Assembly: GCA_947650365.1 (NCBI GenBank)
Contig: OX393555.1
Span: 13,843,550-13,907,549 of the forward strand
Direction: 5' to 3'
Length of the DNA: 64,000 nucleotides
Source: Chamaelirium japonicum
Lineage: Eukaryota > Streptophyta > Magnoliopsida > Liliales > Melanthiaceae
Made by a program: the position numbers and the translations under genes. The first letter of the stretch is position 1. Every line of letters starts with the position of its first letter. Below the pieces are notes generated by a model. That model was given only the letters and a program-made list of their open reading frames with translations. It was not told where the DNA came from and ran no database searches. Of the stretch, positions 23,501 to 63,726 are shown in pieces.

Positions 23501-26500
23501 AAATGACATAATGCAAAACAAATAAATAACGCATAGCATAAGCGATCTCCATCAAGGTGCTGGCTGTCTGATCACAGCCACAAGCTCAGGTGGCGCCTCC
23601 TGCGCTGGTACACGCGCCAGGGGCGCTGCTCGATGTCCTCATCATTCTCCCGGGGTGGGAGAGAGCTCGACTCCGTCGAGTAAGGCTCAGTGCGGCTTTC
23701 GTATAGCTCCAGCAGGTCCGGGTCAAGCCGTTGCAGTTCTTCTCGTTCCATCCACGTATCCTCAGATGGGGGTTTTCCGTTCCAGCGAATCAGGTACCTC
23801 CGAGTTCCACCGTCTCTACCAGAGACGATCTCGTCATCTAGAATTTTATCGATGCCGTCTGCTGTGGAATATGGGATATTTTGGGGAAGTGGAGGTAAAG
23901 GGTTGCTCTCAGAAACAGGATCCAGGGCAGGCTCTACCATAGGATTACTAGGGTTGAAATCTGGGCCTTTGTAGGCCACTAGATCTTCGACATTGAAGGT
24001 CGGACTAATGCCAAAACCCTCAGGGAGGTCAATGACATAGGCATTGTCATTTATCTTCCTTAGTATCCGAAAGGGGCCGGCACTGCGTGCATGTAGTTTC
24101 TTAACGGTCCCTGATGGGAACCGTTCCGGCGGAGCCGGACCATCACATAATCCCCGATGTTAAAAGTTTGAGCTCGTTTTCGGGCATCGGCTCGTAATTT
24201 GTAGTCAGCATTGCTCTGCTCAATTTTGTTACTGATTTCTTTGTGTAATTCATGCATATGTGATGCAAATGCAGATGCAGACTCAGAGACTCTATGATGA
24301 CTAGCCATGGGAATGAGATCTATGGGTTGCCTAGGTTTAAAACCATGGACAATTTCATGTGGACTCATGCCAGTAGTTCTATTAACAGATGAATTATATG
24401 CAAACTCAGCTATTGACAGTTTCAGATCCCAACTCCCAACGTGTTCACCCACTAACGTTCGCAGAAGGTTCCCCAAGCTCCTATTGACTACCTCGGTTTG
24501 ACCGTCGGTCTGGGGGTGGAAGGCCGTGGAAAATTGGAGCTTTGTTCCTAACTTATGCCAGAGAGTCTTCCAGAAAAAACTGGTAAACTTGACATCTCGA
24601 TCCGACACGATGGTCTTGGGCAACCCATGTAACCTCACGATGCCCTCAAAGAAGATTTTCGCGACGTGGGACGCATCGGAAGTTTTGGAGCACGGGAGGA
24701 AGTGAGCCATCTTAGAGAATCGGTCTACCACTACCAAGACCGAGTCATGTTTACGCAGGGTTTTCAGGAGGCCAAGTACGAAATCCATACTGATGTCCTG
24801 CCAAGGACAGTTAGGAACTGGGAGAGGGGTGTACAAGCCAGTGTTTTGCTTTCGCTGTTTGGCCAGTTGGCAAGTATGACACCTACCCACATGTCTGGCG
24901 ACATCACGTTTCAGACTCGGCCAATAAAATCGGCATTCGATGGCTTCGATGGTCTTGTTAACGCCAAAATGGCCAGCAAGACCACCCGCATGTAGCTCCC
25001 AAATAAGGAATTCGCGGAGGGATGTTCGGGGAATGCACAGTCGACGACCACGGAAGAGGTACCCATTTTGCATGAGGTATCCATCTATTTCTTGAACTGT
25101 GGCGTCGATTAGTGCCGCATGGACTTCGCCGAAATCGGGACAAGATTCGTATTCGGCTCTCACTCTTTCAAAACCCTCGACCGAAGCGGTCAACTTAGAC
25201 AGAACGAACATGCGACGACTAAGGGCATCGGCCGCTTTGTTTTCTACTCCAGCTTTATGGCGCAGGGTGAAGGTGTAGTCCTGGAGGAACTCGACCCAGC
25301 GACCATGCCGTGCGTTAAGCTTCTTCTGGGAGTAGATGTACCGCAGGGCTTCATGATCAGAATAGATAACAAATTCTTGTGGCAGTAGGTAGTGTCGCCA
25401 GTGGCGAAGCGATTGGATCACCGCATAGAATTCTTTATCGTAAGTGGAGTATCGCTGTCACGCTTCATTCAGCTTCTCGCTAAAATATGCGACAGGATGA
25501 CCTTCTTGGGAGAGGACGCCCCCAATGCCGATTCCGGAGGCGTCGCAAGCGACTTCGAAGACTTTGGTGAAATCTAGGAGGCGCATCACAGGGGCCTCAA
25601 CCATTCTTCTTTTGATTTCCAGAAATGCCCTAGTGGCCGCACTCGTCCACTCAAACTCGCCTTTCTTCAGACAGTCGGTGATTGGGGCCGTGATGGTACT
25701 GAACCCCTTAATGAATCTCCTATAAAAGGTGGCAAGACCGTGAAAACTTCGGACATCCCGGATGTTTTTGGGTTCAGGCCATTCTTCAATTGCACGGACC
25801 TTCTCGGGGTCGGCGGAAACCCCGTTGACCGACACGACAAAACCAAGGAAGTGGACTTCAGTGGTGAGGAAGGTGCACTTTTTGGGATTGGCGAACAGCT
25901 CTTCCTTTCTTAGCACAGTACAGACTTGCCGAAGGTGGTCTAAGTGCTGCGCTTGGGACTGGCTATAAATGAGTATGTCATCAAAGTACACCACCAAGAA
26001 TTTTCCCATAAAAGGGCGAAGTACTTGTGTCATGACTCTCATGAATGTGCTCGGTGCATTGGTCAGTCCGAACGGCATAACCATCCATTCGTACAGTCCG
26101 TCCTTAGTCTTAAATGCCGTCTTCCACTCATCTCCCGGGCGAATGCGAATTTGGTGGTAACCACTCTTCAAGTCAACTTTGGAGAAGACTGTGGCTCCAG
26201 ACATCAGGTCTAAAAGATCATCTAGGCGAGGGATAGGAAAACGGTATTTGACCGTGATTTTGTTGATGGCGCGGCTGTCTACGCACATGCGCCAAGTTCC
26301 ATCTTTCTTGGGCGTAAGCAGAGCTGGAACCGCGCAGGGACTCATACTTTCTTTGATGAAACCCCTTTTCAGTAGATCATCGACCTGCCGTTTCAACTCG
26401 GTATGTTCTGTAGGGTTCATTCGGTAGTGGGGCAGGTTGGGGAGGCTAGCTCCCGGAACCAAATCGATGGCGTGTTGTATGTCACGCATCGGAGGTAATT

Positions 26501-29500
26501 GGTCTAGGAGGTCCTCAGGGAAGACATCGGCAAACTCTCTCAACACTGGGGCAACCTCTAGGGGAACAACTTGGGTGGACTCTTTAGGAACCTCCCGGGC
26601 GGCAAGGATCATGATCGGGGCCCCTTTTTCCAGCTCGAGGCTCAATTCTTTGGCCCCGATAAGACTGACATTGCTGGTTTTCTTCTTGGAGGTGGGCTGT
26701 TGCGCAGGCTGACCACTCTTGGGTTGAGAGGGTAGCAACTTAATCTTCTTGCCTTCATGTTCAAACATGCACATGTTGGATCGGCCATAGATGAGAACAT
26801 CGTTGTCGAAGAGCCAGGGCCGTCCTAGTATAACTTGACCCACATCCATGGTCAACACATCACACCAGATCTTCTCCTGGTAGGCATTGAAGTTTATGGG
26901 GACCAAACATCTCTGTTTGACCTCCATTGCCGTAGAATTGATCCAGGAGACTTGGTATGGTCGGGGATGGGGAACTACCTTCAATCCAGTCTTGGAGATC
27001 ACGGCAGACGAAACTGCGTTAACGCAACTTCCACTGTCGATGATCACCTTGCAGTTCTTTTCTCCGATCCGAGTAAAGGTGTGAAAGATGTTGGTACGCC
27101 TCCAATCATCTTGTTCTTTAGGTTGGGACAATGCGCACCGAACAACGGCCAGCTCAGTGGGGGCCGTGCGCCTAAGGCAACCTAGGGTAACGTCATCACC
27201 TTCTTCATCAAAGTCTCCTTCATCGTCATCAGCTTGGTAAACGAACCCATCTACGTCTGTCTCCAAAATTTCAACAGGTGTGCCGTCAATGATGTTGATT
27301 TTGACGGGGCTAGGGCAGTTCGCAGCCACGTGCCCATAACCCTGGCACTTGTAGCATTTAGTGAGGGGGCTGATTTTGGAAAAGTCCCTTTCAGGGCCTT
27401 TACCACGGCTGTCCCTTTCGTTGTTCCGACTCGTGGAGTCTGTCCTGGGTTGGGATTGGGTGGGATTAGGCCGACTTGGATAATTGCTCGAGGAAGGTCG
27501 TGGGGCGTGACTTCGGGAATCTTGGCCCCGATGAGACTGGGTGGACCTAAAGCTATCGAGATCTTGCACTAACGCGTAGGCCCTTTCTAACTCCGTAACA
27601 TCACGAGCGAGAAGCTCGTTCCTCAGGTCCTCTCTTAGACCTGACCGAAAGCGGGATAAAATCTGGACAGGGGTCTCAGTCCCTAGAACGTTGCAGCGGG
27701 TCAAGAACTCGTCAAACTTGGCGACGTAGTCTCTTGCTGACTTGTTGCCTTGAGTGAACTGATGCCACTGATCTAAGAGACGCGCTTGATAGGACGGTGG
27801 CACGTATTTACCCTTCAGTTCGTTTTTCATGGCCACCCAGGTGTCGATGGGATCTTGGGTTCGGGCCACCCTCAGGGCTTCAACGTTAGTCCAGTACTGA
27901 CTGGCGGGGCCACTGAGTTTCATTGCAGCGAAACGGACCTTCCGTGGCTCCGTTAATGGGTACCAGGCGAAATACCGGTCCATGGACTGGAGCCAGTCTA
28001 GGAAGAATTGGGGATCATGCCGACCATCAAAAGCGGGCACTTCTAGCCTAATGCTCCGGAGATATTGCTCATCCGGATCTTGATGGTTCTGCCAAGGTGG
28101 CCGAAAATCTTGAGGGTCCACGGGTGGGGGAGTTTGCGGTGGGACTTGATCCAGACGGTCAAAGCGGGCATTGGTATCGCGCTGGTAAGCTGCGAAGTTT
28201 AGGTTCATTGTGGCAATACCTTGAGCTAACTCAGCGAGTGTTCTAGCTAGGGCGTCGGGATCCATGGTGCAACTATCAGACTCACTAGACTCTCTTAGCA
28301 GATATGGCCTACCGTTACGGGTTGGCATGCACACACAACTAATGCAGAAAAATGAAATATGAGAACTGTAGGATGTTTAACTACTAACCATGCTCTGATA
28401 CCAAAATGATGCAATACGATGCAATGACGAAAATGTTTATTAATTAATTGAGCAGGCAGGGCTGATTACTAATTAGGATGCCGTACGAGAAATCAAGTCA
28501 AACAAATAACACGGGCAGATATGATGAGAACTACTGTATTAGTGCCCGTCGCTTTCAGTTTCAGGCGATAAAGCAATCCAAATAGTCCTATTGCAATGTC
28601 TAGATTAATAGCACTACCGGCAGGTGAACACTCAGTCTCACAATGGGGGTAGCAGTTGGCAACGATAATAAACTAGATAACCGATTTGGTGAAACACGAT
28701 AATACCTGGTCGAGGAGGGAACTCCGTAATCTGAGTTGCACGTATGCCTCCACGCTTCCTCTTCCGAATCGCGGGAGGGGAAGTTGATGTCGAGGCCCTT
28801 TCGTCGATTCCTCCACGCTCTCTCCTTCCGGGTCGGGAGGGGAGAGTTGTTTGTCGAGGCACCCGTCGTCGTCTATGATCACACCGTGATCCCCAGCAAA
28901 TCCGGCCCTGCACGCAGGACGAGGGCGCCGGAGATGCGATACCGAGCGGGCAGCAGTAGGGGAAGGAGGGAACGGCCGGTCGGTAGGGTGGAGGGGAGGG
29001 TTCGGGGCAGCAAGGGCAGGAGGGGAAGGGATCGGGTAAGGGGTTGGGGTCGGGTGGAGGTGGGCAGCAGCGGCAGGGAGGGAGGAAGGGGAGATCGGGT
29101 GGGGTTGAGGTCGGGTGGGGCAGGGTGTGGGACCGGCTGCAGCAGCAGCAGCCCAGGGAGAGGAGGGGAATCGGGTAGGGGCTGGGGGTAGGTAGCAGCA
29201 GCGGCAAGGAGAAGGAGGGGCGGACGGGTTGGGGTTGGTCGGGTGTGCAGCGGCAGCGGCAGCAGCAAGGGGAGAAGAGGGAAGAGGGGGGGGATCGGGT
29301 GGGGCTTGGGCAGGTAGGCAGCGGCAGCAGCACGGAGAGGGGGGGGATCGGGTGATGCTTGGGCGGGTAGGCAGCGGCAGCTAGGGGAAAGGGGAGGCCG
29401 GCGGCTAGGTGAGGGAGAGGGATAGGAGAGGGATAATTAGGGTTTCCAGTTTTAGGGTTTCACACGCCTAATACTGGACCTAGGGTTTCACACACCTAGG

Positions 29501-32500: not shown

Positions 32501-35500
32501 TCACAAGCCAACAATTATTTTAAAAGTTTTAGCTAGTAAAGATCTGTAGATCTGACACTTCTTCGGACTGTCAGGTTCACACAATGACATAAACATCCTC
32601 GATCGTTTACCGATCTTCAGTCAGCTTGCGGAGGGAAGAGCTGCCCCATGCAATTTTACCGTCAACGGTCACGACTATAATATGGGGTACTATTTTGCCG
32701 ATGGGTTTTACCCCTCATGGTCAACATTAGTGAAGACCATCCCAGCACCTCAAGGAAACAAGAACAAATACTCTGCTCAACAGCAGGAAAATGTAAGAAA
32801 CGATGTTGAGCGAGCTTTTGGAGTGTTGCAAACCCGATTTACAATAGTAGGAGGACCGGTGCGTTTTTAGCAGTCGAATATGTTTATAGAAATCATGACA
32901 GCCTGCATCATAATGCACAACATGATTGTCGAAGATAAACGGGATTTTCACTATGACCTCAACTTCGACTAAGCCGATGTAACGCCAACTATAGAAGTTT
33001 CTCACAAGCACACTGTGTCTCTGATGGCGTTCATCCACAACCACCATCGGATCAAGAACATGGAAACCCACGAACAACTACAGAACGACTTGATCGAGCA
33101 TTTGTGGCAACTCAAGAGATCTCTACTTGAAAACTATATTTTTATGGTTAATGTAATTGCCTTGAACTTTTTGAGTTATACGTGCGTTTTTTTTTAAAAC
33201 CAATTATACATGCTTTCAAGTTCAATAATAAAAGTTGTTTTATTGAATGTCAAAGAGTTCAACACCTAATACAATCTACTAAAAATTACATAATTAAAGG
33301 AACTCAAGGAAATCACAACCCTAATTAAAGCTACTAGAATTACAATTTAAGAAATTCATAACCCTTCCTAAGCTCTAATCTCAGTCTGGCGTAGATCGAA
33401 ATACTTTCGTTCTACCTACAAAAGCTCTGTGAGGTCTTCGCCATGATTACATCATCCAATTTTTGTTGCTTTTGTGCTTACTTTTTGTTAGGAGATGACG
33501 GCTAGGGTTTGGAGAGGAATAGAATGCATTCCATTGAGGGACTCAAGCCCAATATATGTACATGTATATTTATACAATCCGACCCGACTGTACAGTAAAC
33601 CCGACCCGACTGTATGTACATTAACACTCCCCCTCAAACTCACGGTGGATCATGAACCGAGAGTTTGCCTAGAAAATGTCGGAAGCGAGCAATCGTCAGG
33701 GGCTTCGTCAGAAAATCAGCAGTCTGCTCCGATGAGGAAATGAAAGGCAGGGAGATGGTGTGGTCGATAAACGCCTAGCGAACATAATGACATTCAACTT
33801 CAATATGCTTTGTTCGCTCATGGAAGACCGGATTGCTAGCAATCTGAATAGCACTCCGGTTGTCACAGAAGAGCGGGGTGGGCCCGGATATCACCACTCC
33901 CAAGTCGAGCAGAAGGCGGCGAAGCCAGACAATTTCGGCGGTGGTGGAAGCCATAGCCCTGTATTCGGCTTCGGTGCTGGAGCTAGCAACAGACTCCTGC
34001 TTCTTGCTGCGCCACGAAATCAGTGAATCACCCAGAAACACACAGTAGCCTGTAGTCGATCGACGAGTGGCTGCATCTCCTGCCCAATCTGCATCGGAGT
34101 AGGCACGCAGCACCAACGGAGAGGTGGAGGGAAACAGTAGTGAACGGGTGATGGTACCCCGGAGGTAGCGGATAATCCGAAGAACAGCTGCATAGTATAC
34201 TGACCGTGGAGCCTGAACAAACTGACTGACAATGCCAACAGCATGGGCAATGTCTGGCCGGGTCATGGTGAGATAGACGAGCATCCCAACCAGCCTCTGG
34301 TAGCGGGAGACATCCTGGAGCGGCTCACCGTCTGTAGCGAGAAGCTTCAAGTTGAGCTCCATGGGTGTATCAGCAGTGCACGTGTCAGTAAGAGCAGCAT
34401 CAGCAAGGATGTCGGAGATGTACTTCTGCTGGGAGACCAACAGACCACGAGCTAACCGGGCAATCTCAAGGCCCAAAAAGTAGCGAAGAGATCCCAGATC
34501 TTTCATCTCAAACTGACTCTGGAGGTGCCGCTGGAGACAGGCAATGGTGGCACTGTCATCCACAGTGATGATCATATCATCCACATAGAGGAGAAGAACT
34601 GCAATGCCCTGACTGGAGGAGCGAGTGAACAAGGCATAGTCGGAGTGACGCTCAACAAAACCGGCGGCCAGAACTACGCTGCGAAATCGCTCAAACCAGG
34701 CACGAAGGGCCTGCTTGAGCCCATAGATGGCTCGGCGCAACCGACACACGTGCCCTGGAGGAACTGAAGTGCCCGGAGGAGGAGCCATGTAGACTTCCTC
34801 GGAGAGATCACCGTGGAGAAACGCATTGGTGACATCCATCTGATGGAGAGGCCACCCTCGAGCAGCTGCCACAGCTAAGAGGGTGCGCACAGTAGTCATC
34901 CGAGCAACTGGAGCAAACGTTTCCTCGTAGTCAATCCCATACTCCTGGGAGAAGCCGCGAGCAACGAGGCGAGCCTTGTGCCGCTCAATGGATCCGTCAG
35001 GTCGAGTCTTGACCTTGAATATCCACTTGCAGCTAACAGGCACCACCCCAGAGGGACAGGGCACCAACTCCCAGGTCTGAGTCCGCTGAAAAGCCTCAAG
35101 CTCAACTGACATGGCCTGCCGCCACTCTGGATGTAACGCTGCTTCACGGTACGATTGGGGCTCCCGATGGGTATGTATAGCAGTAAGAAAGGCCTGAAAG
35201 GATGGTGAATAGGAGACACTGGCAGAGTAGCCAGAAGAGTCAGGAGAGTCAGAAGGAAAAGCAGAGTAGCCAAACCTGTCAGGAGAGTAGTCATATCTGT
35301 CAGGAGGGTGATGTTCGTGCGCTGGGTAGCGCCGAACAGGAGCAGGATCCACGACCGGGGAGGAGGGGGCAGCAACATCAGGCGAGGGAGTACCAGTGGG
35401 AACCGACTCTGGAGGGGGAGCTGCAGACCGACGTACATAGACACGAGTAATGGGTGGTGGTGGAGGTGGCGAGGGAGACTGAGGAGGTGGTGGTGGTGGT

Positions 35501-38500
35501 GGAGGTGGCGTGGATGGCGCAACAGAAACCGGGGGTAGAACAGGGATGTGGAGATGTGAGGAGGGCGAGGAGGATGACGCAGGAGGCAAGGAAAGATCCC
35601 GAGACTCAGGTGCAAAATACGGGACATCCTCAACAAAGGAGACGTGACGGGAGACACGAATCCGACGAGCTAAGGGATCATAGCAGCGATACCCCTTGTG
35701 CTCACGACTGAGCCCCAAGTGAACACACCTAACAGACCTCGCAGAAAGTTTGGTGCGCTCATGGGAAGGAAGAAGAACGAAGCACGTGCAGCCAAACGTG
35801 CGAAGAAGAGAGTAGTCAGGTGGACTGGAGTGAAGGCGCTCGTAAGGGGTGGCACCGGACAGAGCAGACGACGGAGTGATATTGATGAGGTGAACAGCCG
35901 TCATGACAGATTCAGCCCAGTAGGAGTGAGGAACAGACGCAGAGAGAAGCAAGGCTCGTGCAGTCTCAAGGACATGACGATGCTTGCGTTCGGCAACGTC
36001 GTTCTGCTCATGTGTGTGGGGACAGGACTGCTGGTGAAGAGTGCCGTGAGACTGAAGAATCTCACGCATCTCAGAGGAGAGATACTCCTTGGCACAATCA
36101 GACCGAAAGGTCTTGATGCGCCGACCAAACTGGGTGTCTATCATAGTGGTGAATCTCCTAAAGATGTGAGGTACTTCAGATCGATGACGCATAAGATAAA
36201 CCCAGGTGCACCTAGAATAGTCATCGATAAAGCACACATAATACATGTAACCCGATAGAGATGCAACAGGAGCAGGACCCCAAATGTCCGAATGGACTAA
36301 ATCAAATAAAGCATCAGACTGGGAAGCACTAGCAGAAAAAGGAAGAGCTAGATGCTTTGCCAGTCTACAACCCGTACAAACAGAGAGGGGAGAAAGACGC
36401 TCGACCCAAAGCGCCCGAACGGAATACGCTTTTGAGTCGATCACTCGATATATGACCTAACCTTCTGTGCCACAGGTCGGCATCAGAGGTGACAAACATG
36501 ACAAACGCAACTGAAGACACATGGAGATGGTCCAACTGGTAGAGTTCTCCTGCCCTACGGCCCAGCCCAATCCTCTGACCCGTCCGCAAATCCTGCACAA
36601 CACAAACAGAAGGGGTGAAGGTGACAATCAGGCCAGAGTCGCAAAGAGAACTGATAGAGATCAGATTAATATTAAGACGGGGGGCATGATGGACATGGGG
36701 TAGGGTCAGGCGACCAGAAGGGTCAGAGGTGGTAGTGATGGAGCCACATTGCGGAATAGGGACGAGAGTCCCATCCGCAGTGCGAACCTCCTGGTGGGTG
36801 GTAGTGGGAGAACAGTCCGTGAGGACAGTGGAGTCAAAGGCAAGGTGACAGGAGGCACCCGAATCGAAGATCCATGGAGCAGTAGTACCAGAGGTGGTAG
36901 ACAAGCCATGCGCAGTCGCAGAGCCGGTGGAGGCTAGGTGGCGAAGAAGGAGCTCCTCGAGGCGCTGAAGACGGTCCGGCTCAGGCGGAGAAGGTGCTGT
37001 GGTAGCAGTGGGGAGCGTCGAGGCCTCTACAGTAGCCGCTGTACCACCAAAGTGGCGGAAGGAAGACGAACCACGTCCACGGCCCCGTCCACCTCGACCG
37101 CCGCGTCGATCGTCGCGAGAGGTCGAAGCCCAGCGGGGGGCTCTCTCATCCGGACCCCAGCGGGGGTTGCGTGGAGGACGTGTAGGGCATTCGCGCTTTG
37201 TGTGACCGGGCTCCTTACAGTAGTGACAGAAGACAGCCTCATCGGAGAACCCGGCTGCCAGGACAGAGTCGGAGCTAGGAGCAAGTGGAGGAGGACGAGC
37301 GCCCTGAGTCTGAAGGCAGGCGGGTCTCCTCGTCGACCAAGGCGAGTAGAGCATCCTCGAGCCGAGGGAGTGGCTCACGGTGCAGGAGCTGGGCAGCTAT
37401 GAGAGCAAAGTCCGGTCGAAGCGCTGCCAGGAACTGGTGCAGGTGGCCCTCGTCGAGGTAGCGCTGGAAATCCCGGGAGCGGGGACAGGCACACCGCTCC
37501 GGGATCAGTAAGTCCAGCTCATGCCAGTAGGCACTCATCTGACTGAAGAAGTCCTGAATAGTGCGCTCCCCCTGACGGGCAGACTGCGAGTCACAGATGA
37601 GCTGATGCCGGCGTGCACCTCCGCGTGGGAGAAAACGGTCCCGGAGATACTCCCACATCGCGCGCGCTGTCGGAAGGCGGCCGATGGGAGCAAGGAGCGG
37701 ACGAGCAACCGAGTCCAGAAGATACGCCCGGATGGCCTGATCGTGGCGGCGCCACGTAAGAGCAGCAACGGTGATGGCCGTGGTAACAGTCGCTGCAGAA
37801 GACGCAGCACTGCTGGTGACAGAGGAGGAGCCGGAGTAGTCAGTGGGAGGAGGATCCTCGCCGGTGATGTGACCCCATAGACCACGACTGGAGAGGGCGG
37901 CCTCGACGGTGAGGGACCAGTCAGGCCAGTCGCTGGCCGATGACAACTGAAAAGCGACCGCCTTCAGCGGTGGAGAGATCGCAACGACGGACGGTACGGC
38001 TAGAGAAGCCATGGAGGAGGCTCAATAGAGGGGGGGGATGTAGGTGGTCGGGAGAGGCTGTAGGACGGAGGAGGGGGGGTCGGGGGGTGTCAGGGGGGCT
38101 GTAGGGTGTCGGGAGGGGATCGGGGGGGGCTGTAAGGTGGCGGGGGGTGTCGGGGGGGCTGTAGGGGGGTCGGGGAGGGGTCGGGGGGGGGGGCTTTAGG
38201 GGGGTCGGGGGGGGTCGGGGGGGCTGTAGGGGGGTCGGCGGGGTGCTGTAGGGCGGAGGAGGGGTGCCGAGGGTGAGGCTGGTGGAGAAGGGGGGGCCGG
38301 CGGGGGGCTGGAGGGCGGAGGCGGGGCCAGGGGGGGTGGCCGGGTGGAGAAGGAGGGGCCGGCGGGGAGCTGGAGAGTGGAGGAGGGGCCGGGGGGGTGG
38401 GCAGTTGGAGAAGGGGGGGCCGGCGGTGGCTGTAGGCCGGAAGGGGGGGCCGGGGGACTGCCGATCAGGTGAACGGAGGCCGGAGGAGATGACCGTCGTC

Positions 38501-53868: not shown

Positions 53869-54286
53869 TGGTAGCCGGTGGTGGTCTGACGGTATAGACG
53901 ACGATGGTCCGGCAGGTGGCGCAATGCTTTAGGCAAGGTGGGGTCAGCTAGTGGTAGGGTGGGGTTGGTCTTTCTTGGGATTGATGAAAAGGGGAGGGAA
54001 AACCTTCTATTTATAGGCATTTTGGGAATGATAAAGGTCATAATAGTTACATGCAAAATGCTTTAAAATACTTAATTAATATATGGGTTTTATGGGAGAG
54101 AATCCCAATAGCTTTTTCGGTTTAAAATCCAAAGGTCATATGATTTAATTGTTATTATACCCTACTAACCTATTAACTTAATTACTATATTAACTTGATG
54201 GTCGAATCATAAGAGTTAACCGTTTTCAGCTACAAAACTGAAGGGTTGGGTTATTTCAAGCCATGCTTTAGGTTTAAATAAGGTTT

Positions 54287-55512
54287 TGTTGGGGGAAGCA
54301 GAAATCCGCCCTGGAGTTCGCCCCCCCCCCCCCTGCTCACCAAATCACCTTGATAGGGAGCGAGATCCACATTGGGCTGGAGGGGCCTAGGCCAAGGGCA
54401 CTCATAGGAGCTCGATTAAGCTCGCTGGAGCTCGCCTGATCTCGCCCAGGAGCCCGCCTAAGCTCGCTGGAGCTCGCCTGATCTCGCCCAGGAGCCCGCC
54501 TAAGCTCGCTCAGGAGCTCGCTAAGCTCGCCCAGGAGCTCGCCAAGCCCGCGCGAGAACTCGCTTGCAGTGGTAGCGGGAGTTAGACCGTCATGCATAAC
54601 AAAGACACCGGCATCGCAAACGCCCCTAGCTCATGCAGGAGCTCGCCCAAGATCGCGCAGGAGCACGCCCAAGTTCGCCCTTGCCTGTGGATCTCATAGA
54701 CCCCAGGATTCCGAGGGGTGGGGAACTCGCCCAGGAGCTCGCCCCCCCCCCCCCCCCCCCCCCCCCCCCATGCTAACCAAGTCACCTTGACAGGGAGCGA
54801 GCTCCACATTGGGCCGAAGGTGCTTTAGGCAAAGAGCTCGCTCAGGAGCTCGCCCAAGCTTGCTCAGGAGCTCGCCCAAGCTTGCTCAGGAGCTCGCCAA
54901 GCTCGCTCCGGAGCTCGCCTAAGCTCTCTCGGGAGTTCGCCAAGCTCGCTCAGGAGCTCGCTTAGCTCGCTCCGGAGCTCGCCCAAGCTCGCTCCGACCC
55001 CTGTTTATCGAAGAGGTTGCCCCCGCGAGGTCCGACTCTTGATAAATATGGACGAAAGGACGGAGCAGTGCTGGGCGAGCTTGCCTTTGCTTCCTCCCTG
55101 AGACCGCCCAGACTTGAACATTCCAGAATAGACACCTGGCCGTGACAAGAAAGATACTCTCCCCCACTCAAACCGCCTGGCAGGCTTAACGACAGAATGT
55201 CAGGGCGCGAGTACCAAGGACTGTCAGACCTACGCGAGCCAGAACGTGGGGGTCTAGAAGGCCCTGAAAGAATCTCCACGCGTCGGGCCACGGTAGGCCG
55301 CCGATTGCTATAAATGCTCACCCCCAGGCTCCATAGTACAGGTTCGAAATCCTTTTCCCTACCACTTTGGTATACAACAGCTCGCCGTTGTGCTACCGTG
55401 ACTGACTTGAGCGTCGGAGGGTCTGCGCTCCTAAGGGAGCCAGCCGTTCTCACGTTCTCTTTTCTTTGTCTTGCAGGCGGCCCGCACGGACCAGCGAAAA
55501 ATCCCCCGAACA
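54287..55512 (+). repeat. 5' LTR of the non-autonomous element
   Basis: TGTTGGGG to CCGAACA. The first half is made of GAGCTCGCC/AGCTCGC short repeats and C homopolymers (13 and 28 bases). A TATA-like GCTATAAATGC lies near 55307. Confidence 0.92.
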
Positions 55513-55561
55513 TTTGGCGCCGTCTGTGGGAACGTTTCGACTGGTTCCTGCGAGAACGCCC

Positions 55562-57040
55562 ATGACCACGCGGTTGAACGCCAGAGTTTCTCGTAACCCA
55601 AAGATGGCTCCGGCGGCAAAGGGACGCAGGCGACCGAGGACCCGTGCGAGATCTGCGCGCAGCGAGCCTCCTGTTGAGACCCCTCAGCCCCAGGTCCCGC
55701 TCAGTGACCAACTCTTGTTGGAGATGTTGGCCACCCAGCGGGCCATGATGGAGGAACTGACGCGATTGCGTCAGGCTCCGGCGGCCAGCCGACGGTCTGG
55801 GCCGGTGAATACGGCACCTCCGGTGCGACCACCAGCGTCAACATCGTATCCGCCCACGACCGTTCCGGCGCGGCAGGTTTCCCGCCAGGAGCCCCCGGTC
55901 GAGAGAGCGGCCGCGCGCAGGATGCCGGAAACCCCGCTGACGAGGTTGCAGAAGCTAGTAACCCAGCGGTCTAGCAACCAGGCTACCTCGCGCGCGACAA
56001 TCCCTTGCCGCCGTAGCCGGAGCGTCGATTCTGACGGGTCGGAGGCGAGGTCTCTAGAGCGGGATCGCGACCCGCGCCATCGGCGACAAGGGAAAGAGCC
56101 TGCGGTGGCTGTACTTTCCGAAGCTCGCGAGGCAACGGCCTCCCACAGACCAACTGACGCGCTGAAGGAATCCGCGGGCGAACAACAAGGAGGCCGCCGA
56201 GCGGTAGCCCCCGAGGGTCGCCGCGGGGTGGGTCCGACCTTACCACGAGGGAGCGTGCGAGACCGCCTAGGACCTGCGCAGCCGCCTCTAGGAGTTCTCC
56301 CCGGGCACTGGCAGCGATCTAGTGCGCCAGTAGATTTATTGGAAGACCTCGCCACCCACGGAGGTAGCTCGCCTTTCACCAGCGAGGTCCACCAAGGGGG
56401 TTTTCCGCACCACTGGACCCCCCCGAAGTTTGTATTGTTCGACGGGTCGCAGGATCCCGTTGACCATCTTTTGGCCTACAGAAAGCTTCTGTTTTTCCGG
56501 GACCAAGACCACGTCTTGTGCCGAGCATTCCCGAGCAGTTTGACCGGCTCGGCGTTGAACTGGTTCCACAAGTTGCCGTCGGGCGCCCTTCCAGACTTCC
56601 CAACTCTCTCCAGGTTGTTTCTGGAGCAGTACCGGTGCAACAGACAGTCCCCTAAGAGGATCGAGTCCCTCTTCACTTTGTCCATGGGAGCCCGCGAAAC
56701 TCTTCGAAGTTTCGTGACACGCTTCCAAAGCGCCTACCTCGCTCTGGAGGACGTTGTCGACCAAGATCTCACAACGGTGAGCGCATTCCGGAACGCCCTC
56801 CCCGAGGGAAGCAAGCTTCATGACGCCCTGGTAATCAAGGATCCCCGCACGATCGTGGAGCTATTCGCCCTTGTCCAGCAGCACATCAGGCTCGAGGATG
56901 CGGTGTTAGACCGGAAGGGAGAGGCAGTCGAGCAGCGACCCCCTCCGGCTCTACGACCTCTCTTCGTTAAAGCCGTGGAGAGGCGGGGGGTGCCACAGGT
57001 GGCACCTTCGCCCGGACCGCCCGCAGCTCCTGCCGTATAG
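55562..57040 (+). CDS. Gag-like protein of the non-autonomous element
   Basis: An open frame of about 490 codons from the ATG at 55562; an earlier in-frame ATG lies inside the LTR and is an unlikely start. The N-terminus is Arg/Pro-rich and probably disordered. The middle (GGFPHHWTPPKFVLFDGSQD, then LTGSALNWFHKLPSGALPDF and LSRLFLEQYRCNRQSPKRIE) matches the Retrotrans_gag domain of Ty3/gypsy elements. No zinc knuckle was seen. As a capsid-type protein it would package the element RNA. It may continue past 57040 through the 78-bp array in another form; I do not model that. Confidence 0.85.
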   Translation: MTTRLNARVSRNPKMAPAAKGRRRPRTRARSARSEPPVETPQPQVPLSDQLLLEMLATQRAMMEELTRLRQAPAASRRSGPVNTAPPVRPPASTSYPPTTVPARQVSRQEPPVERAAARRMPETPLTRLQKLVTQRSSNQATSRATIPCRRSRSVDSDGSEARSLERDRDPRHRRQGKEPAVAVLSEAREATASHRPTDALKESAGEQQGGRRAVAPEGRRGVGPTLPRGSVRDRLGPAQPPLGVLPGHWQRSSAPVDLLEDLATHGGSSPFTSEVHQGGFPHHWTPPKFVLFDGSQDPVDHLLAYRKLLFFRDQDHVLCRAFPSSLTGSALNWFHKLPSGALPDFPTLSRLFLEQYRCNRQSPKRIESLFTLSMGARETLRSFVTRFQSAYLALEDVVDQDLTTVSAFRNALPEGSKLHDALVIKDPRTIVELFALVQQHIRLEDAVLDRKGEAVEQRPPPALRPLFVKAVERRGVPQVAPSPGPPAAPAV

Positions 57041-57162
57041 CCCGTGGAAGCCCCCCCGGTGGTCGCTGGAAGGCCGGCGAACTGGCACCTGCCTCCGGGA
57101 CCCGGGGAGCGGGATTTCACCGAACGACGGAGGTTTCAACAAAGAAGTTAGCTCAGAAGCTC

Positions 57163-57755
57163 AGCGCAGACAGAGCCCGCATGATCTATAATGTGCAGTC
57201 CGCCGTTGTGCGGACTTAAAGCAAGACCGGGATCCTCAGAGGCAGCCAGTGGGCGACCTTGAGCTTCCCGGGATAGTCCGCCGTTGTGCGGACTTAAAGC
57301 AAGACCGGGATCCTCAGAGGCAGCCAGTGGGCGACCTTGAGCTTCTTGGGGTAGTCCGCCGTTGTGCGGACTTAAAGCTAGACCGGGATCCTCAAAGGCA
57401 GCCAGTGGGCGACCTTGAGCTTCCCGGGGTAGTCCGTCGTTGTGCGGACTTAAAGCAAGACCGGGATCCTCAGAGGCAGCCAGTGGGCGACCTTGAGCTT
57501 CCCGGGGTAGTCCGCCGTTGTGCGGACTTAAAGCAAGACCGGGATCCTCAGAGGCAGCCAGTGGGCGACCTTGAGCTTCCCGGGGCAGTCCACCGTCGTG
57601 CGGACTTAAAGCAAGACCGGAATCCTCAGAGGCAGCCAGTGGGCGACCTTGAGCTTCCCGGGGCAGTCCGCCGTTGTGCGGACTTAAAGCAAGACCGGGA
57701 TCCTCAGAGGCAGCCAGTGGGCGACCTTGAGATTCCCGGGGAAGTCCGCTGCCTA
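57163..57755 (+). repeat. 78-bp tandem array, about seven units
   Basis: Units with GGCAGCCAGTGGGCGACCTT spaced exactly 78 bp (57241, 57319, ...). Because 78 is a multiple of three, the plus strand stays open across the array and would encode 26-residue units (VGDLELPGVVRRCADLKQDR core). Units differ by only a few bases. Confidence 0.93.
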
Positions 57756-58149
57756 GTGGACTCTAAACCTAACCAGGATCCTTCGCGTTCACCTGCCATG
57801 AACGGAAGCATCCTGGCGTTGGCATACCCCTCGAAGGGCGAGCCCATCGAACAGGATCATCGAGGGAAATTAACCGGGCAGGGGGCAGCTAGCACTTATT
57901 AATTTTCTTTAAAAATAAAAATGGTTTAAGTCTCTGAGTGTAGGGAAGTTTTTGAAGTCTTTTGGTTCGCTTAAACGTTTTCCGGGCTCAGAGACTATTG
58001 AGTTTTTGTGAGCATGCCGAGTTTTTCGTTTGCATATACTTTAAAATAAAAAGGTTGAATCGAATTAGCTGCCTCGCCCGGGGTATCACTCTCGAGATCG
58101 TTGCGAACTCCTAGAGCGGACTCATAAGTGGCACAGAGAAAGAAAGAAA

Positions 58150-58260
58150 CGTATATGCGAACTCAGAAAGATTTCATTTCATTGATTAAACCAAAAATTA
58201 CAAAGGCAGTTACGAGGCTGTGAGCTCAAGGCTTGCTAGTCTCCGCCCCACTGTCGTCCC
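58150..58260 (-). terminator. 3' UTR/poly(A) region of the antisense gene
   Basis: Downstream of the antisense frame the minus strand turns AT-rich, with TTTGTAATTTTTGG and AATCAATGAAATGAAATC, resembling plant polyadenylation regions. No exact cleavage site is assigned. Confidence 0.4.
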
Positions 58261-58357
58261 CTCGGCGCCGCTTCTTCGACCTTACGGTCCTGTATTTCTC
58301 CACAGCGGTCAGGGCGCCTTTCTTGAGGAGATCGTCTAGCTGGGCTTGGAGGCGACC

Positions 58358-60789
58358 TTACTGAGCCCGGAGGCCATCGGCGTGCGTCTCCTTCAGGGCG
58401 GCGATCTCTGTCTTCAGAGCAGCGACCTCGCCTTGAAGTTGAGCCGCCTCCCGCTGCGCGACCTCCCTGGCGGACACAGCCTCGTCTCGCTCCGCCTTAG
58501 CTTTGAGGAGGGCGGTAGCGGACAGGCCTTTGGCTGCCTCGGCCATGGCAAGGCCTAACACCAGGGCTTTGACCCTGCGGTGCAGTGCCTCTGACTCCGC
58601 CCTCAGCTCCTCGGAGCCCTTAGCTCGTTGAAGCTCGTGGATGTGCTCATCCACCTTGCGCTCGGACCCCCGAAGGGAATCGTCGAACAAGGCAGGCAGC
58701 GCCTTCCCGGCCCCAGCGACCTTCACGGCCAGCGCCTGGCTCTGCTTCTCCGCCTGCATAAGGAAGGTGAAAAAGTTAGCAAAAAGCGAAAATTAGCATT
58801 CTTGGCGGAAGGGTCAGAGAGAGCAAGATGTACCTCGGCCAGGCGTTCGCTTATTGAAGCGAAGGGGGCTCGAGCGAAGACGTTGCGGCCCAGCAGCTGC
58901 CGCACGTAGTAGGGCGCCCTCCCCTCCTCCGCAGAGGAACCCGCGCTGGGACCCCCCGGAGCTTCAGTAGCAGGGGGCACGCCGGGAAGAGTGGAGGCTG
59001 GCACCTCCCCCGGGCGAGCTCCGGCTGCTGGCGGGCTTGGAGGGTCCGCCCCGACCCCCTTGGCCTCCGACTCCGAGCTGGAGGACTCGGAGTCGGAGCC
59101 AATATCCACGAAGGAGGGGGACCTGTAGATCAAGTCCCCCGTATCCTCCGGGAAGTCCACCCTCTCCTTACCCCGTCCAGATGACGAGGGCAGAGGAGCG
59201 GATATGGAAGCTGCAGGGGGCGTAGAGGTCGCAGCGGCGGTAGGGGTTTCTGGCCCACTGTCCTCGCGGGAAATTTCCCGAGGAGCAGAGGGTGGCACCC
59301 CGCCCTGCTGGACCTCCACCCCGGCGGGAGGAGGTGGAAGCTCCTGCCCGCTCGGTCCCGCCCCTGGTGCGGGAGCTGATGGAGCTGCGGGCTTCTCCAC
59401 TTGGGCAGGAGCGACGGGCTCCGCCCGAAGAGCTTGAGGGACGTGCCCCTCCTCCTCGGAGCCTGGCGCCTCCTCCTCGGAGTCCGTCCAACTGGGCTCC
59501 GAGTCCAAGCCCGCCTCCTCCAGCGCTTTTCGCCGCTGCTCCGTCTGGATGTTCGAAGGCGCGGGCCCCGCGCGTTTGGCCTTCTTCTTCCCGTGGGCCT
59601 CCATCTCCGGCGTCAGCACTGCTACACGAAGAGGGACGGTCAGATCGCCCGGGAAGTAGCCCATTAATATCTGGGCCATCCCGGATTCGACTTCCGCCAT
59701 GGTTAGCGGGAGGTCGATGTTCGGGTCGTCGGGCTCGACCATTTGGATCTTGCGGCGGACAATAGGAGTTGGGGCGGAAGGCTGACCTGGGCCGGCGTCC
59801 GGGCGAGGAGGTTGCGGAGGAGCGGAGGCTTCGCCCTGGCGGAGCATCTCCATGGTGTCGGGGTCGTTGAGGCGGATGGGCGAAGCCCGCCTCCGGACCG
59901 TCTTCTTGCGGGGGTTGCCCCCCGAGCTCCCTGCCCCCTTGCTGGCCCCTTTGGAGGGAGGAGCGTTCTGCATCAGCGGAATAGCGCCGACCTCCTCCTC
60001 CTTCTTCTTCCGGACGATCTTCTGCTTCAGCAGAATAGCGCCGGTCTTCCCGTCCTTCAGCTGGAAGGCAAAGTCGGGAGCGGTGATCTTCTCCGGAGTC
60101 CGCCCCCCGAGGTAGTGAAGGATCGCCTCGTCCAGAGATCGCTCCCGGTCAGGAGCGATGCACTTCTTCTTCCCCGCCTTATAGAAGGAGATCTCCCAGA
60201 AGACCGCTGTCGGGGGAGCCCCGGGGTGAGCCGGGACTCCGCTGAACCGCCCGCGCCAGTCGCCGACCACCACGAAAGGATAGTCCTTCCAGTGGCGGTC
60301 CTTGCTCTCGATAGTGGAGAAGGGGAGCACCTCGCCAGGTCGCCCGGCGAGGTAGAAGTAGCCGTAGCCCGTGGAGCTGAAGACCGGCGAGGGCTTGAGG
60401 AGCCACTTTTTGAGCAGATAGCTCAGTGGGATCCTCGCCTTCAGGGCGGTCTCCAGCTGGGACAGCCCGTAAAGTATCCCCCAGGAGTTTCCTGAGAGCT
60501 GAGCAGGGCAAAGCCCCGTCAACTCCAGGAGCTCCCCGGCGAGATGACTCAGGGGGAACCGCAGCCCGGACCACAGTAGCCCGATAGAAGCTACTGTGCC
60601 CTGGGGCGGCCTCCCCGAGAGTGGCATCTCGGTGACGAGGATCTCCTGAGGGAGATCGATCGCCGCCCGGATACTGTCCCCAACGGGCACCCCGATCGGG
60701 TTCTGCAGCCAGACCACTGCCCTCTCGGCGGCGGGCTCAGAGGCTTGGGAGGCGGCAGCAGCAGCAGCAACGTCGGAAGCGGAGGCCAT
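58358..60789 (-). CDS. Antisense extra gene of the element, spliced, ~783 codons
   Basis: On the minus strand: exon 1 60789-58834 (652 codons), an 80-bp intron 58833-58754 with GTACAT donor and ATGCAG acceptor, exon 2 58753-58358 (131 codons plus stop), phase 0 throughout. The N-terminal part (LWSGLRFPLSHLAGELLELT, LCPAQLSGNSWGILYGLSQL) resembles the plant 'putative gypsy type transposon' domain (Transposase_28-like). The middle is Pro/Ser/Glu-rich and low complexity. The C-terminus (RAESEALHRRVKALVLGLA to AAQLQGEVAALKTEIAALKE) is a predicted coiled coil. The start is MASASDVAAAAAAS. Its function is unknown; it could be an accessory protein of the element or a captured host gene. Confidence 0.78.
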
Positions 60790-60897
60790 TAGAGCAGAAG
60801 GGCTAAGGCGAGCTAGCAGAAAAAGTGATCAGGGCGGGCTGAAAGCAGAGAATGAAGGGAGAGCTGTTTTCACGCGACGGTAATTATCGCCCCCCAT

Positions 60898-60911
60898 CCC
60901 CTATTTATAGA
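60898..60911 (-). promoter_or_regulatory. TATA box of the antisense gene
   Basis: The minus strand reads CTATAAATAGGGG about 110 bp upstream of the ATG at 60789, a good plant TATA box at a typical leader distance. This suggests the antisense gene has its own promoter. Confidence 0.65.
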
Positions 60912-61189
60912 CGGGTGAGAGGCAGGTGAATCGAGCCGCAGTTAATGCCCGAGCGCGCGCGGCGAGGCGACGTGACGGCAATCGAAGCGACAACTCGCTT
61001 CTTTCTAATCGTCGAGCGCCACGTGGGCCACGCGTGGAAAAGGCTGCGCCGGCGCCGACATTATCATTTAATGACAAAAGAAGAGCGAATGAGGAGGAGA
61101 CACGTGTCTCGCGCCGATCGGGATCTCATGATGAGATTCGCTGTATCAGCATCGAGCCTCGCGCCGCATTTAAGATAAAGCGACCGTTG

Positions 61190-62140
61190 GAGATTTGTGA
61201 AATACTGGGAGTCAAAACTCTTGACGCAGATCTCCCACGGCTGGTGCCCAAGCTCGCCTGAAGCAGACCCTGGCCGCGTGTGACAAGCTCGCACCGGAAG
61301 GAGATCGCTCGTGGCTGATGCTCGTGGCCCGCCCAGCGTTTGTGAAATACTGAGAGTCAAAACTCTCGACGCAGACCGCTCGCGGCAGGTGCCCGCAGCT
61401 CGCTCGAGGCAGACCCTGACCGCATGTGACGAGCTCGCATCGGAAGGAGATCGCTCGTGGCTGATGCTCGCGGCCCGCCCGGCGTTTGTGGAATACTGGC
61501 AGTCAAAGCTCTCGGCGTAGACCGCACACGGCAGATGCCCGCAGCTCGCCTGAGGCAGACCCTGACCGCGTGTGACAAGCTCATACCGGAAGGAGATCGC
61601 TCGTGGCTGATGCTCGCGGCCCGCCCGGCGTTTGTGGAATACTGGCAGTCAAAGCTCTCGACGCAGACCGCTCGCGGCAGGTGCCCGCAGCTCGTTCGAG
61701 GCAGACCCTGACCGCGTGTGACAAGCTCGCACCGGAAGGAGATCGCTCGTGGCTGACGCTCGCGGCCCGCCCGGCGTTTGTGGAATACTGGCAGTCAAAG
61801 CTCTCGGCGCAGACCGCACACGGCAGATGCCCGCAGCTCGCCCGAGGCAGACCCTGACCGCGTGTGACAAGCTCGCACCGGAAGGAGATCGCTCGTGGCT
61901 GACGCTCCCAGCCCGCCCAGCGTTTGTGAAATACTGGGAGTCAAAACTCTCGGCGCAGACCGCTCGCGGCAGGTGCCCGCAGCTCGCCCGAGGTAGACCC
62001 TGACCGCGTGTGATGAGCTCGCACCGGAAGGAGATCGCTCGTGGCTGACGCTCCCGGCCCGCCCAGCGTTTGTGAAGTACTGACAGTCAAAGCTCTCGGC
62101 GCAGACCACCCGCGGTTGGTGCCCGTAGCCTACCGGGTGG
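61190..62140. repeat. 146-bp tandem array, about six to seven units
   Basis: Units recur at 146 bp (TTTGTGAAATACTG-like starts near 61193, 61338, 61484, 61630, 61776, 61922, 62068). Each contains GGAAGGAGATCGCTCGTGGC and CTCGCGGCAGGTGCCCGCAG. The array lies between the antisense gene's promoter and the 3' LTR. Confidence 0.93.
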
Positions 62141-62240
62141 AGGTCGCAAATGACTAGAACTCCCCATTCGACCGTCGTGTGCAATAAGACTCCTGAGCAA
62201 GCGCCAAAGACTCCTTAGTCGCTCACTCAGGAGGGGGTAA

Positions 62241-63464
62241 TATTGGGGGAAGCAGAAATCCGCCCTGGAGTTCGCCCCCCCCCCCCCCCCATGCTCACCA
62301 AATCACCTTGACAGGGAGCGAGATCCACATTGGGCTGGAGGGGCCTAGGCCAAGGGCACTCATAGGAGCTCGACTAAGCTCGCCTGATCTCGCCCAGGAG
62401 CTCGACTAAGCTCGCTGGAGCTCGCCTGATCTCGCCCAGGAGCCCGCCTAAGTTCGCTGGAGCTCGCCTGATCTCGCCCAGGAGCCCGCCTAAGCTCGCT
62501 CAGGAGCTCGCTAAGCTCGCCCCGGAGCTCGCCTAAGCTCGCCCAGGAGCTCGCCAAGCCCGCGCGAGAACTCGCTTGCAGTGGTAGCGGGAGTTAGACC
62601 GTCATGCATAACAAAGACACCGGCATCGCAAACGCCCCTAGCTCATGCAGGAGCTCGCCCAAGATCGCGCAGGAGCACGCCCAAGTTCGCCCTTGCCTGT
62701 GGATCTCATAGACCCCAGGATTCCGAGGGGTGGGGAACTCGCCCAGGAGCTCGCCCCCCCCCCCATGCTAACCAAGTCACCTTGACAGGGAGCGAGCTCC
62801 ACATTGGGCCGAAGGTGCTTTAGGCAAAGAGCTCACTCAGGAGCTCGCCCAAGCTTGCTCAGGAGCTCGCCAAGCTCGCTCCGGAGCTCGCCTAAGCTCT
62901 CTCGGGAGTTCGCCAAGCTCGCTCCGGAGCTCGCCCAAGCTCGCCCCGACCCCTGTTTATCGAAGAGGTTGCCCCCGTGAGGTCCGACTCTTGATAAATA
63001 TGGACGAAAGGACGGAGCAGTGCCGGGCGAGCTTGCCTTTGCTTCCTCCCTGAGACCGCCCAGACTTGAACATTCCAGAATAGACACCTGGCCGCGACAA
63101 GAAAGATACTCTCCCCCACTCAAACTGCCTGGCAGGCTTAACGACAGAATGTCAGGGCGCGAGTACCAAGGACTGTCAGACCCACGCGAGCCAGAACGTG
63201 GGGGTCTAGAAGGCCCTGGAAGAATCTCCACGCGTCGGGCCACGGTAGGCCGCCGATTGCTATAAATGCTCACCCCCAGGCTCCATAGTACAGGTTCGAA
63301 ATCCTTTTCCCTACCACTTTGGTATACAACAGCTCGCCGTTGTGCTACCGTGACTGACTTGAGCGTCGGAGGGTCTGCGCTCCTAAGGGAGCCAGCCGTT
63401 CTCACGTTCTCTTTTCTTTGTCTTGCAGGCGGCCCGCACGGACCAGTGAAAAATCCCCCGAACA
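62241..63464 (+). repeat. 3' LTR of the non-autonomous element
   Basis: Partner of 54287-55512, with C tracts of 16 and 11 bases and different AGCTCGC repeat counts. It ends CCGAACA before the GGTTT duplication. Confidence 0.92.
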
Positions 63465-63726
63465 GGTTTCTTTAGGAATCATAACAAAAGGATTGAGTTA
63501 GTTTGATGGTTGGGGTTTAGATGATTTTGGGTAGGTCATAGGTTTGAATCCACGCATTACCATTTTTTAGTTTTTACTTTTTAATATATTTTACAAGTGA
63601 TCAAATGATTAAAGTTTGTATACGGGTTTTTTATCGTTTCGTCAAGTTGGACTAGGTTTGATCAACTTATGGTTTGGTTTTTTTTGAACATGCATTTTCC
63701 TCGATTGAAAAAATATGTTAAAGATT

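Follow-up and report, generated by a model that had tools for sequence, protein, structure and literature searches.

Within a 64,000-nucleotide stretch of the Chamaelirium japonicum genome (contig OX393555.1; hereafter the window, from whose first letter all positions are counted) we identify a gag-bearing, pol-less retrotransposon of the Tat/Retand type that very likely carries, on its minus strand, a gene with a TATA box, two exons, an intron and its own 3' end, predicted to encode a TRP28-type protein. A type of additional reading frame already known would thus probably be a genuine spliced gene. The intron-split structure is what appears to be new here; antisense TRP28 frames (PMC11963269) and the own promoter of gene23 in the Grande element (PMC7264820) had already been described, so that the "undescribed system" proposed in the initial annotation of this DNA is in these respects a familiar one.

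Antisense TRP28 frames are characteristic of Retand elements, being reported in 97% of clusters in a survey that, in its accessible text, predicts TRP28 to bind DNA and gives no similarity to it outside elements (PMC11963269); elsewhere TRP28 is put at 23% of Retand elements (PMC6317226). Grande gene23 has an upstream promoter of its own and a product reported as nuclear, and the 2020 review that presents it calls for a search for spliced antisense transcripts (PMC7264820). Elements with gag only are known as TR-GAG (PMC6022998, PMC9784723). We found no report of splicing of such antisense genes in the available literature, and an earlier description is possible.

The element that hosts the gene has the following parts:

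54287-63464, plus strand: the whole non-autonomous LTR retrotransposon, with a 5-bp TSD, GGTTT, at 54282-54286 and 63465-63469
54287-55512, plus strand: 5' LTR, 1226 bp, delimited from LTR ends and flanks
55515-55534, plus strand: primer-binding-site-like sequence directly 3' of the 5' LTR, from the sequence
55562-57040, plus strand: gag, 492 codons, with a Retrotrans_gag domain (Pfam PF03732, E 1.1e-9)
57197-57749, no strand assigned: 78-bp tandem array of 7.1 copies, separating gag from the antisense gene (repeat analysis)
61194-62129, no strand assigned: 146-bp tandem array of 6.4 copies (repeat analysis)
62229-62237, plus strand: polypurine-tract-like stretch ahead of the 3' LTR, judged by eye
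62241-63464, plus strand: 3' LTR, 1224 bp, from the LTR comparison

The two LTRs are 98.9% identical over aligned bases, with 13 mismatches, all of them transitions, in 1166 columns, and with gaps that take up 118 columns in 6 runs. At a substitution rate of 1.3e-8 these 13/1166 differences correspond to an insertion age of ~0.43 My, a rough figure because the changes are all transitions, and the retrotransposon appears to be young. Runs of C, one of 28 (54742-54769) and one of 16 (62275-62290), sit in the LTRs among 22-bp GAGCTCGC-type tandem repeats and are G-rich on the opposite strand. The sense strand holds a single gag frame, in which a pattern scan found no CCHC knuckle. We found no pol domain in the element, as the initial annotation of a pol-less element with gag had it: the interval from gag to the 3' LTR has 14 plus-strand frames of at least 80 aa, none of the two scanned against Pfam contains a pol domain, and the only ones of at least 150 aa are one that falls within the 78-bp array and two that lie across from exon 1 of the antisense gene. 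The LTRs, the gag domain and the lack of a pol domain are the defining features of TR-GAG elements. Elsewhere in the window we observed a minus-strand Ty3/gypsy element with gag, RT, RNase H and integrase domains (22476-29459), flanked by near-identical frames at 22476-23297 and 28638-29459 that are presumably its LTRs; a minus-strand Ty1/copia element with several frames (33775-38021; Retrotran_gag_2, gag_pre-integrs, rve and RVT_2); and, also on the minus strand, part of a gene for a voltage-gated chloride channel (4267-4815; Voltage_CLC, E 1.4e-24).

The predicted antisense gene occupies the minus strand between gag and the 3' LTR, flanked on each side by one tandem array, and is composed as follows:

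60902-60909, minus strand: TATA box (TATAAATA), from sequence and conservation in copies
58834-60789, minus strand: exon 1, 652 codons, with a TRP28-like domain at residues 71-109 and a long low-complexity middle
58754-58833, minus strand: intron, 80 bp, GT-AG, with a CTAAC branch-like site and 57.5% A+T, from sequence and copies
58358-58753, minus strand: exon 2 as readable in the window copy, 131 codons and TAA, from sequence and codon test
58226-58357, minus strand: tail of the exon 2 frame, the last 43 codons and TGA, past a stop confined to the window copy, with a basic KKRRR stretch
58163-58225, minus strand: A/T-rich 3' end with an AATGAA-like signal, by eye

The coordinates and reading frame of the 652-codon exon and of the canonical 80-bp intron that joins it in phase to exon 2 were borne out on reanalysis, as was a TATA box upstream of the ATG (at 60789), TATAAATA beginning 120 nt before it. 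The intron is laid out as GT...CTAAC...CAG and has a G+C content of 42.5%, against 66% in exon 1 and 65% in exon 2. The spliced product of the window copy would be 783 aa long and end at the TAA at 58358-58360, past which the same frame runs on for 43 more codons to a TGA at 58226-58228.

We then considered the coding signal. Among 1000 dinucleotide shuffles of 58226-60911 none had an open frame of at least 652 codons in any of the six frames, the longest being 464. When GT-AG pairs of 60-400 bp in the later part of the frame were tested, 117 of 431 reached the same stop, so in-phase joining is by itself not rare; only the pair at 58754-58833 yields at least 783 aa. With codon usage learnt solely from exon 1, exon 2 read in its spliced phase scored higher than 1000 of 1000 shuffles, and the tail at 58226-58357 reached a level matched by 1 in 1000. 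In sliding windows the best coding phase changes at the intron, which is itself negative in all six frames, and 3-base periodicity is 21.5 in exon 1 and 10.1 in exon 2, compared with 8.4 in gag, 1.4 in the 5' LTR and at most 3.9 and 4.1 in shuffles. Codon usage, phase switch and periodicity thus support the gene model independently, ahead of any relatives. The designation of exon 2 as a coiled-coil exon fared less well: its Pfam matches are all below cut-off, and a heptad test gave no signal above shuffles (337/1000 as high).

A search of the assembly containing the window (1.52 Gb) gave 2494 first-look candidates, of which 40 were scored and all 40 used, namely the window copy and 39 others with 94-96% identity across almost the entire query. 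As the initial annotation had anticipated, the intron and frame are retained among them: the intron measures 80 bp in all 40, with the donor GT in 39 and the acceptor AG in 40, the ATG is present in 39/40 and the final TGA in 40/40, and a whole-codon length is preserved by exon 1 in 38/40 and by exon 2 with its tail in 37/40. Exon 1 ranges from 1950 to 1977 bp, and 9 of the 13 distinct length changes relative to the window copy are multiples of three. The region with TATAAATA is present in 39 copies, and 38 of these have the box intact (mean identity 0.997), a degree of conservation seen in 6 of 384 upstream 8-mers, TATAAATA itself included. The stop at 58358-58360, given originally as the end of exon 2, does exist in the window copy; the other 39 copies have a sense codon there and read through to the TGA at 58226-58228. 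Together with the codon analysis, the comparison establishes, at the level of sequence, a predicted gene model with a coding signal whose splice sites and frame are kept among copies.

The reading frame is uninterrupted from start to final stop in 12 copies and interrupted in 28. Singleton variants comprise 387 nonsynonymous (N), 216 synonymous (S) and 17 stop changes (N/S 1.79), and those present in at least three copies 124, 104 and 2 (N/S 1.19; Fisher p 0.011), the expected N/S being 2.00 when derived from the singleton spectrum with sequence context ignored. This pattern fits decay after insertion together with moderate constraint in the source elements. The first stop falls at codon 425 in four copies (L030, L033, L036, L038) and at codon 260 in three (L018, L021, L029), indicating that broken versions also multiply or get duplicated; these copies either arose by segmental duplication or represent subfamilies that spread while their gene was broken. 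Diversity (pi) is 0.028 in the intron versus 0.042 and 0.040 in the exons, and the low G+C of the intron may be a factor in this.

To the Pfam model Transposase_28 (PF04195, TRP28) the window protein shows a match at residues 71-109 that scores 13.0, 15.0 and 17.1 bits (E 0.12, 0.03 and 0.0064) with the whole exon, 240 aa and 100 aa respectively, under the gathering score of 26.2 bits. In the same genome PF04195 is found over cut-off in at least 137 places (150 scored of 5978 candidates), and in a tblastn search with window exon 1 each of 30 over-cut-off loci fetched from the 137 listed matched at 1e-3 or better, the best E-values being 1e-17 to 2e-17 and the matches covering mainly residues 63-229 at ~30% identity. 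An alignment of 14 sequences has 10 invariant columns. The Transposase_28-like domain of the initial annotation is thereby upheld as homology to all 30 loci and qualified in that the window protein itself falls below the Pfam cut-off, and we regard this predicted protein as a divergent TRP28 homologue below the curated score. PF04195 was found in 0 of 14 control genomes, a result of little weight as the set may contain no plant; scans of viral, bacterial and archaeal contigs confirmed no relatives outside the genome, and a PDB sequence search with 240 aa of the window protein gave no match. Structure predictions were poor, with a mean pLDDT of 36.3 for residues 1-266 alone and 39.6 for 230 residues with 13 aligned relatives. 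One locus, L067, has a TRP28 domain spanning positions 1-68 of the 69 in the Pfam model and after it looks by eye nearer to the window protein than the main group does; the domain alone was recognized there, the other exons not being found. A clustering put 22 of the 30 loci together and cannot be relied on at L062, L064 and L069 at the least, where a non-TRP28 frame had been taken, and we used identities to the first exon of L041 in its place.

Eight of the 30 fetched loci, picked mainly for long open frames and hence non-random, were extended by 2 kb, and six of them fit a three-exon antisense gene, in which the TRP28 exon is followed by a phase 1 intron of 83-95 bp, a 46-aa exon, a phase 0 intron of 72-75 bp and a helix-rich last exon of 182 aa. 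The two that do not fit have an earlier stop (L047) or lack the first acceptor AG (L050). To place the second intron, the 81-119 GT-AG candidates of each locus were ranked by an ad hoc score and the best one taken, a choice supported by an out-of-phase control and by homologous exons in 4 of 5 further loci. For the six spliced frames (L047 and L050 left out) dN/dS is 0.14-0.29 in 15 of 15 pairs, at dS 0.05-1.33, whereas shifting the phase by one or two bases gives 0.79-1.59 and 0.70-1.97. By part, in five pairs, the values are 0.05-0.09 for the TRP28 half, where one dS of 2.6 is saturated, 0.20-0.24 for the middle and 0.12-0.20 for the last exon. These figures establish purifying selection on the predicted spliced frame of the distant relatives. 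As to selection on the antisense frame, which the initial annotation had singled out for examination, the signal is therefore strong in these relatives and modest in the window's own family.

Five further loci were extended as well, and in four of them homology brings out all three exons, separated by intron-size gaps, with only the second gap open to judgement in L062; the identity of these four to the first exon of L041 is 46-66%. The fifth, L067, gave the domain only. Thirteen relatives were examined for a TATA-like box; a start was recognized in 10, and 7 of these have such a box 97-125 bp upstream of it, the distance in the window being 120. The window intron and the second intron of the relatives are both in phase 0 and both ahead of a helix-rich last exon. 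Homology of the two introns by way of the flanking protein is unsupported, as the end of window exon 1 does not align with the 46-aa exon of the relatives (rank 534 of 613 windows; 690/1000 shuffles as high), and window exon 2 has no significant similarity to their last exon (best E 0.089); a single ancestral intron shared by the window gene and its relatives is possible.

Turning to the family of the window element, we sampled nine sister copies, all from the top of the match list. Next to the antisense gene, towards gag, seven of the nine have integrase or RT, two of these as fragments only, and gag is collinear with the window in the other form, seen in two of the nine. Both sister copies examined for domains proved to have RT, RNase H, a second RNase H and integrase; in one of them, L071, a single frame contains RVT_1 (49-210), RT_RNaseH (305-402), RVT_3 (470-587) and Integrase_H2C2 (679-735). 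The second, archaeal-type RNase H of this copy thus lies between RH and integrase, the position given for Ogre and Retand (PMC6317226), and the Retand-type arrangement of an antisense frame between the pol region and the 3' LTR is seen in the window and in seven of the nine sisters. Uninterrupted antisense frames occur in pol-bearing and gag-only forms alike. Since seven of nine sisters keep pol or fragments of it, the family as such bears pol, and the form with gag only, seen three times (the window element and two sampled sisters), is a non-autonomous subfamily of the TR-GAG kind; the window element is best explained as a gag-bearing, pol-less member of a Tat/Retand-type Ty3/gypsy family. 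What had been called a striking minimal form is on this count a type already known (PMC6022998, PMC9784723).

We propose that the antisense gene would be transcribed and spliced, the full protein being obtainable from the antisense mRNA only. By analogy, the product most likely works in trans in the nucleus as an accessory protein, such a site of action being suggested by the reported nuclear location of the gene23 product (PMC7264820) and the predicted DNA binding of TRP28 (PMC11963269); the last 43 codons of the window protein include a basic tail, KKRRR. It may act in trans as an accessory regulator by binding nucleic acid and may self-associate through its last exon, a design that would be comparable to deltaretrovirus antisense accessory proteins such as HBZ, and the pol-less copy would be mobilised by enzymes of its pol-bearing sisters. 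The intron exists on the antisense strand only, and reverse transcription of the sense genomic RNA would copy it unchanged, which would explain its persistence.

Alternatively, the antisense transcript might work as RNA, forming dsRNA with the sense RNA in silencing or self-limitation, with the frame a leftover. Such a role has been discussed for antisense transcripts of LTR elements (PMC7264820, PMC12786077) and is in keeping with the interruption of 28 of the 40 copies, but an RNA function needs no frame, whereas splice sites are kept and length changes come in whole codons among the copies, and the dN/dS of the relatives is 0.14-0.29 over three exons as against 0.70-1.97 out of phase. Because selection at the codon level makes an RNA role alone insufficient, we judge this unlikely; RNA and protein roles could coexist. 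Less likely still is the uptake in antisense orientation of a cellular, intron-containing gene. A captured genomic gene would be expected to bring introns and a promoter of its own, yet PF04195 at no fewer than 137 genomic places and an adjoining, oppositely oriented integrase matching that of a sister copy at 10 of 13 loci (6 of 8 and 4 of 5) mark it as an old resident of the lineage, and TRP28 is without similarity outside elements in the available account (PMC11963269); an ancient capture of a host gene is possible. A chance long frame with a fortuitous GT-AG pair, for which the 66% G+C of exon 1, the other frames of 150-326 codons overlapping it and the 117 of 431 pairs reaching the same stop might be invoked, is exceedingly improbable given the 0/1000 shuffles, the codon test, the conservation in 40 copies and the homologous protein in 30 of 30 TRP28 loci.

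Beyond the protein-coding spliced gene favored here, we entertain a wider reading as a serious possibility that falls somewhat short of probable: an ancient, multi-exon, separately promoted antisense gene that joins a TRP28 domain and a low-complexity middle to a helix-rich last exon could be a core selected component of the lineage, its product made solely from spliced antisense mRNA and serving as a nuclear regulator in trans for pol-bearing and pol-less elements. If true, this would give plant retroelements a counterpart in design to the antisense regulators that complex retroviruses make by splicing; introns in such a plant gene would be safe, since the replicating RNA is the opposite strand. 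Retroelements are expected to lose introns, their life cycle passing through an RNA that can be spliced. The antisense gene would escape this loss, its intron being kept copy after copy and distant relatives keeping theirs at dS >1. Were these genes expressed as modelled, unexplained antisense frames of an abundant plant lineage would be exons of spliced genes and surveys of continuous frames would have recorded shortened products; the complete proteins would then be open to cloning, localisation and testing.

Among known systems, HBZ of HTLV-1 is the product of a spliced gene and has a leucine zipper. It is antisense and nuclear (PMC11963269), and we suggest that the window product may resemble it as a nuclear regulator with a self-associating helix; this is an analogy of design for which we claim no sequence relation, and the HTLV antisense promoter is in the 3' LTR (PMC7264820), whereas the window TATA box is internal. 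A close parallel is with Retand elements, which share the antisense position between pol and the 3' LTR, the TRP28 domain and tandem arrays in that region, with some clusters being without gag or pol domains; their LTRs are given as 315-1,194 bp (PMC11963269), against 1,226 and 1,224 in the window element. That survey used continuous frames and found elements by RT, placing pol-less ones outside its scope, and in its accessible text "intron" is absent and "splic" occurs in the references only (PMC11963269), whereas in our model the window frame makes up just one exon of a gene divided by an intron. It also lists antisense frames with Smc domains (PMC11963269), some of which may be last exons of intron-split genes. 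Grande gene23, which we liken by description, is also an antisense accessory gene; it lies in the 3' part of the internal region and has an upstream promoter, and the word "intron" is absent from the available text of the review (PMC7264820). With TR-GAG the window element has in common two LTRs, gag as the sole gag-pol domain and a non-autonomous nature (PMC6022998, PMC9784723); it differs in its length of 9.2 kb, in its antisense gene and in two tandem arrays that it has in common with its pol-bearing relatives.
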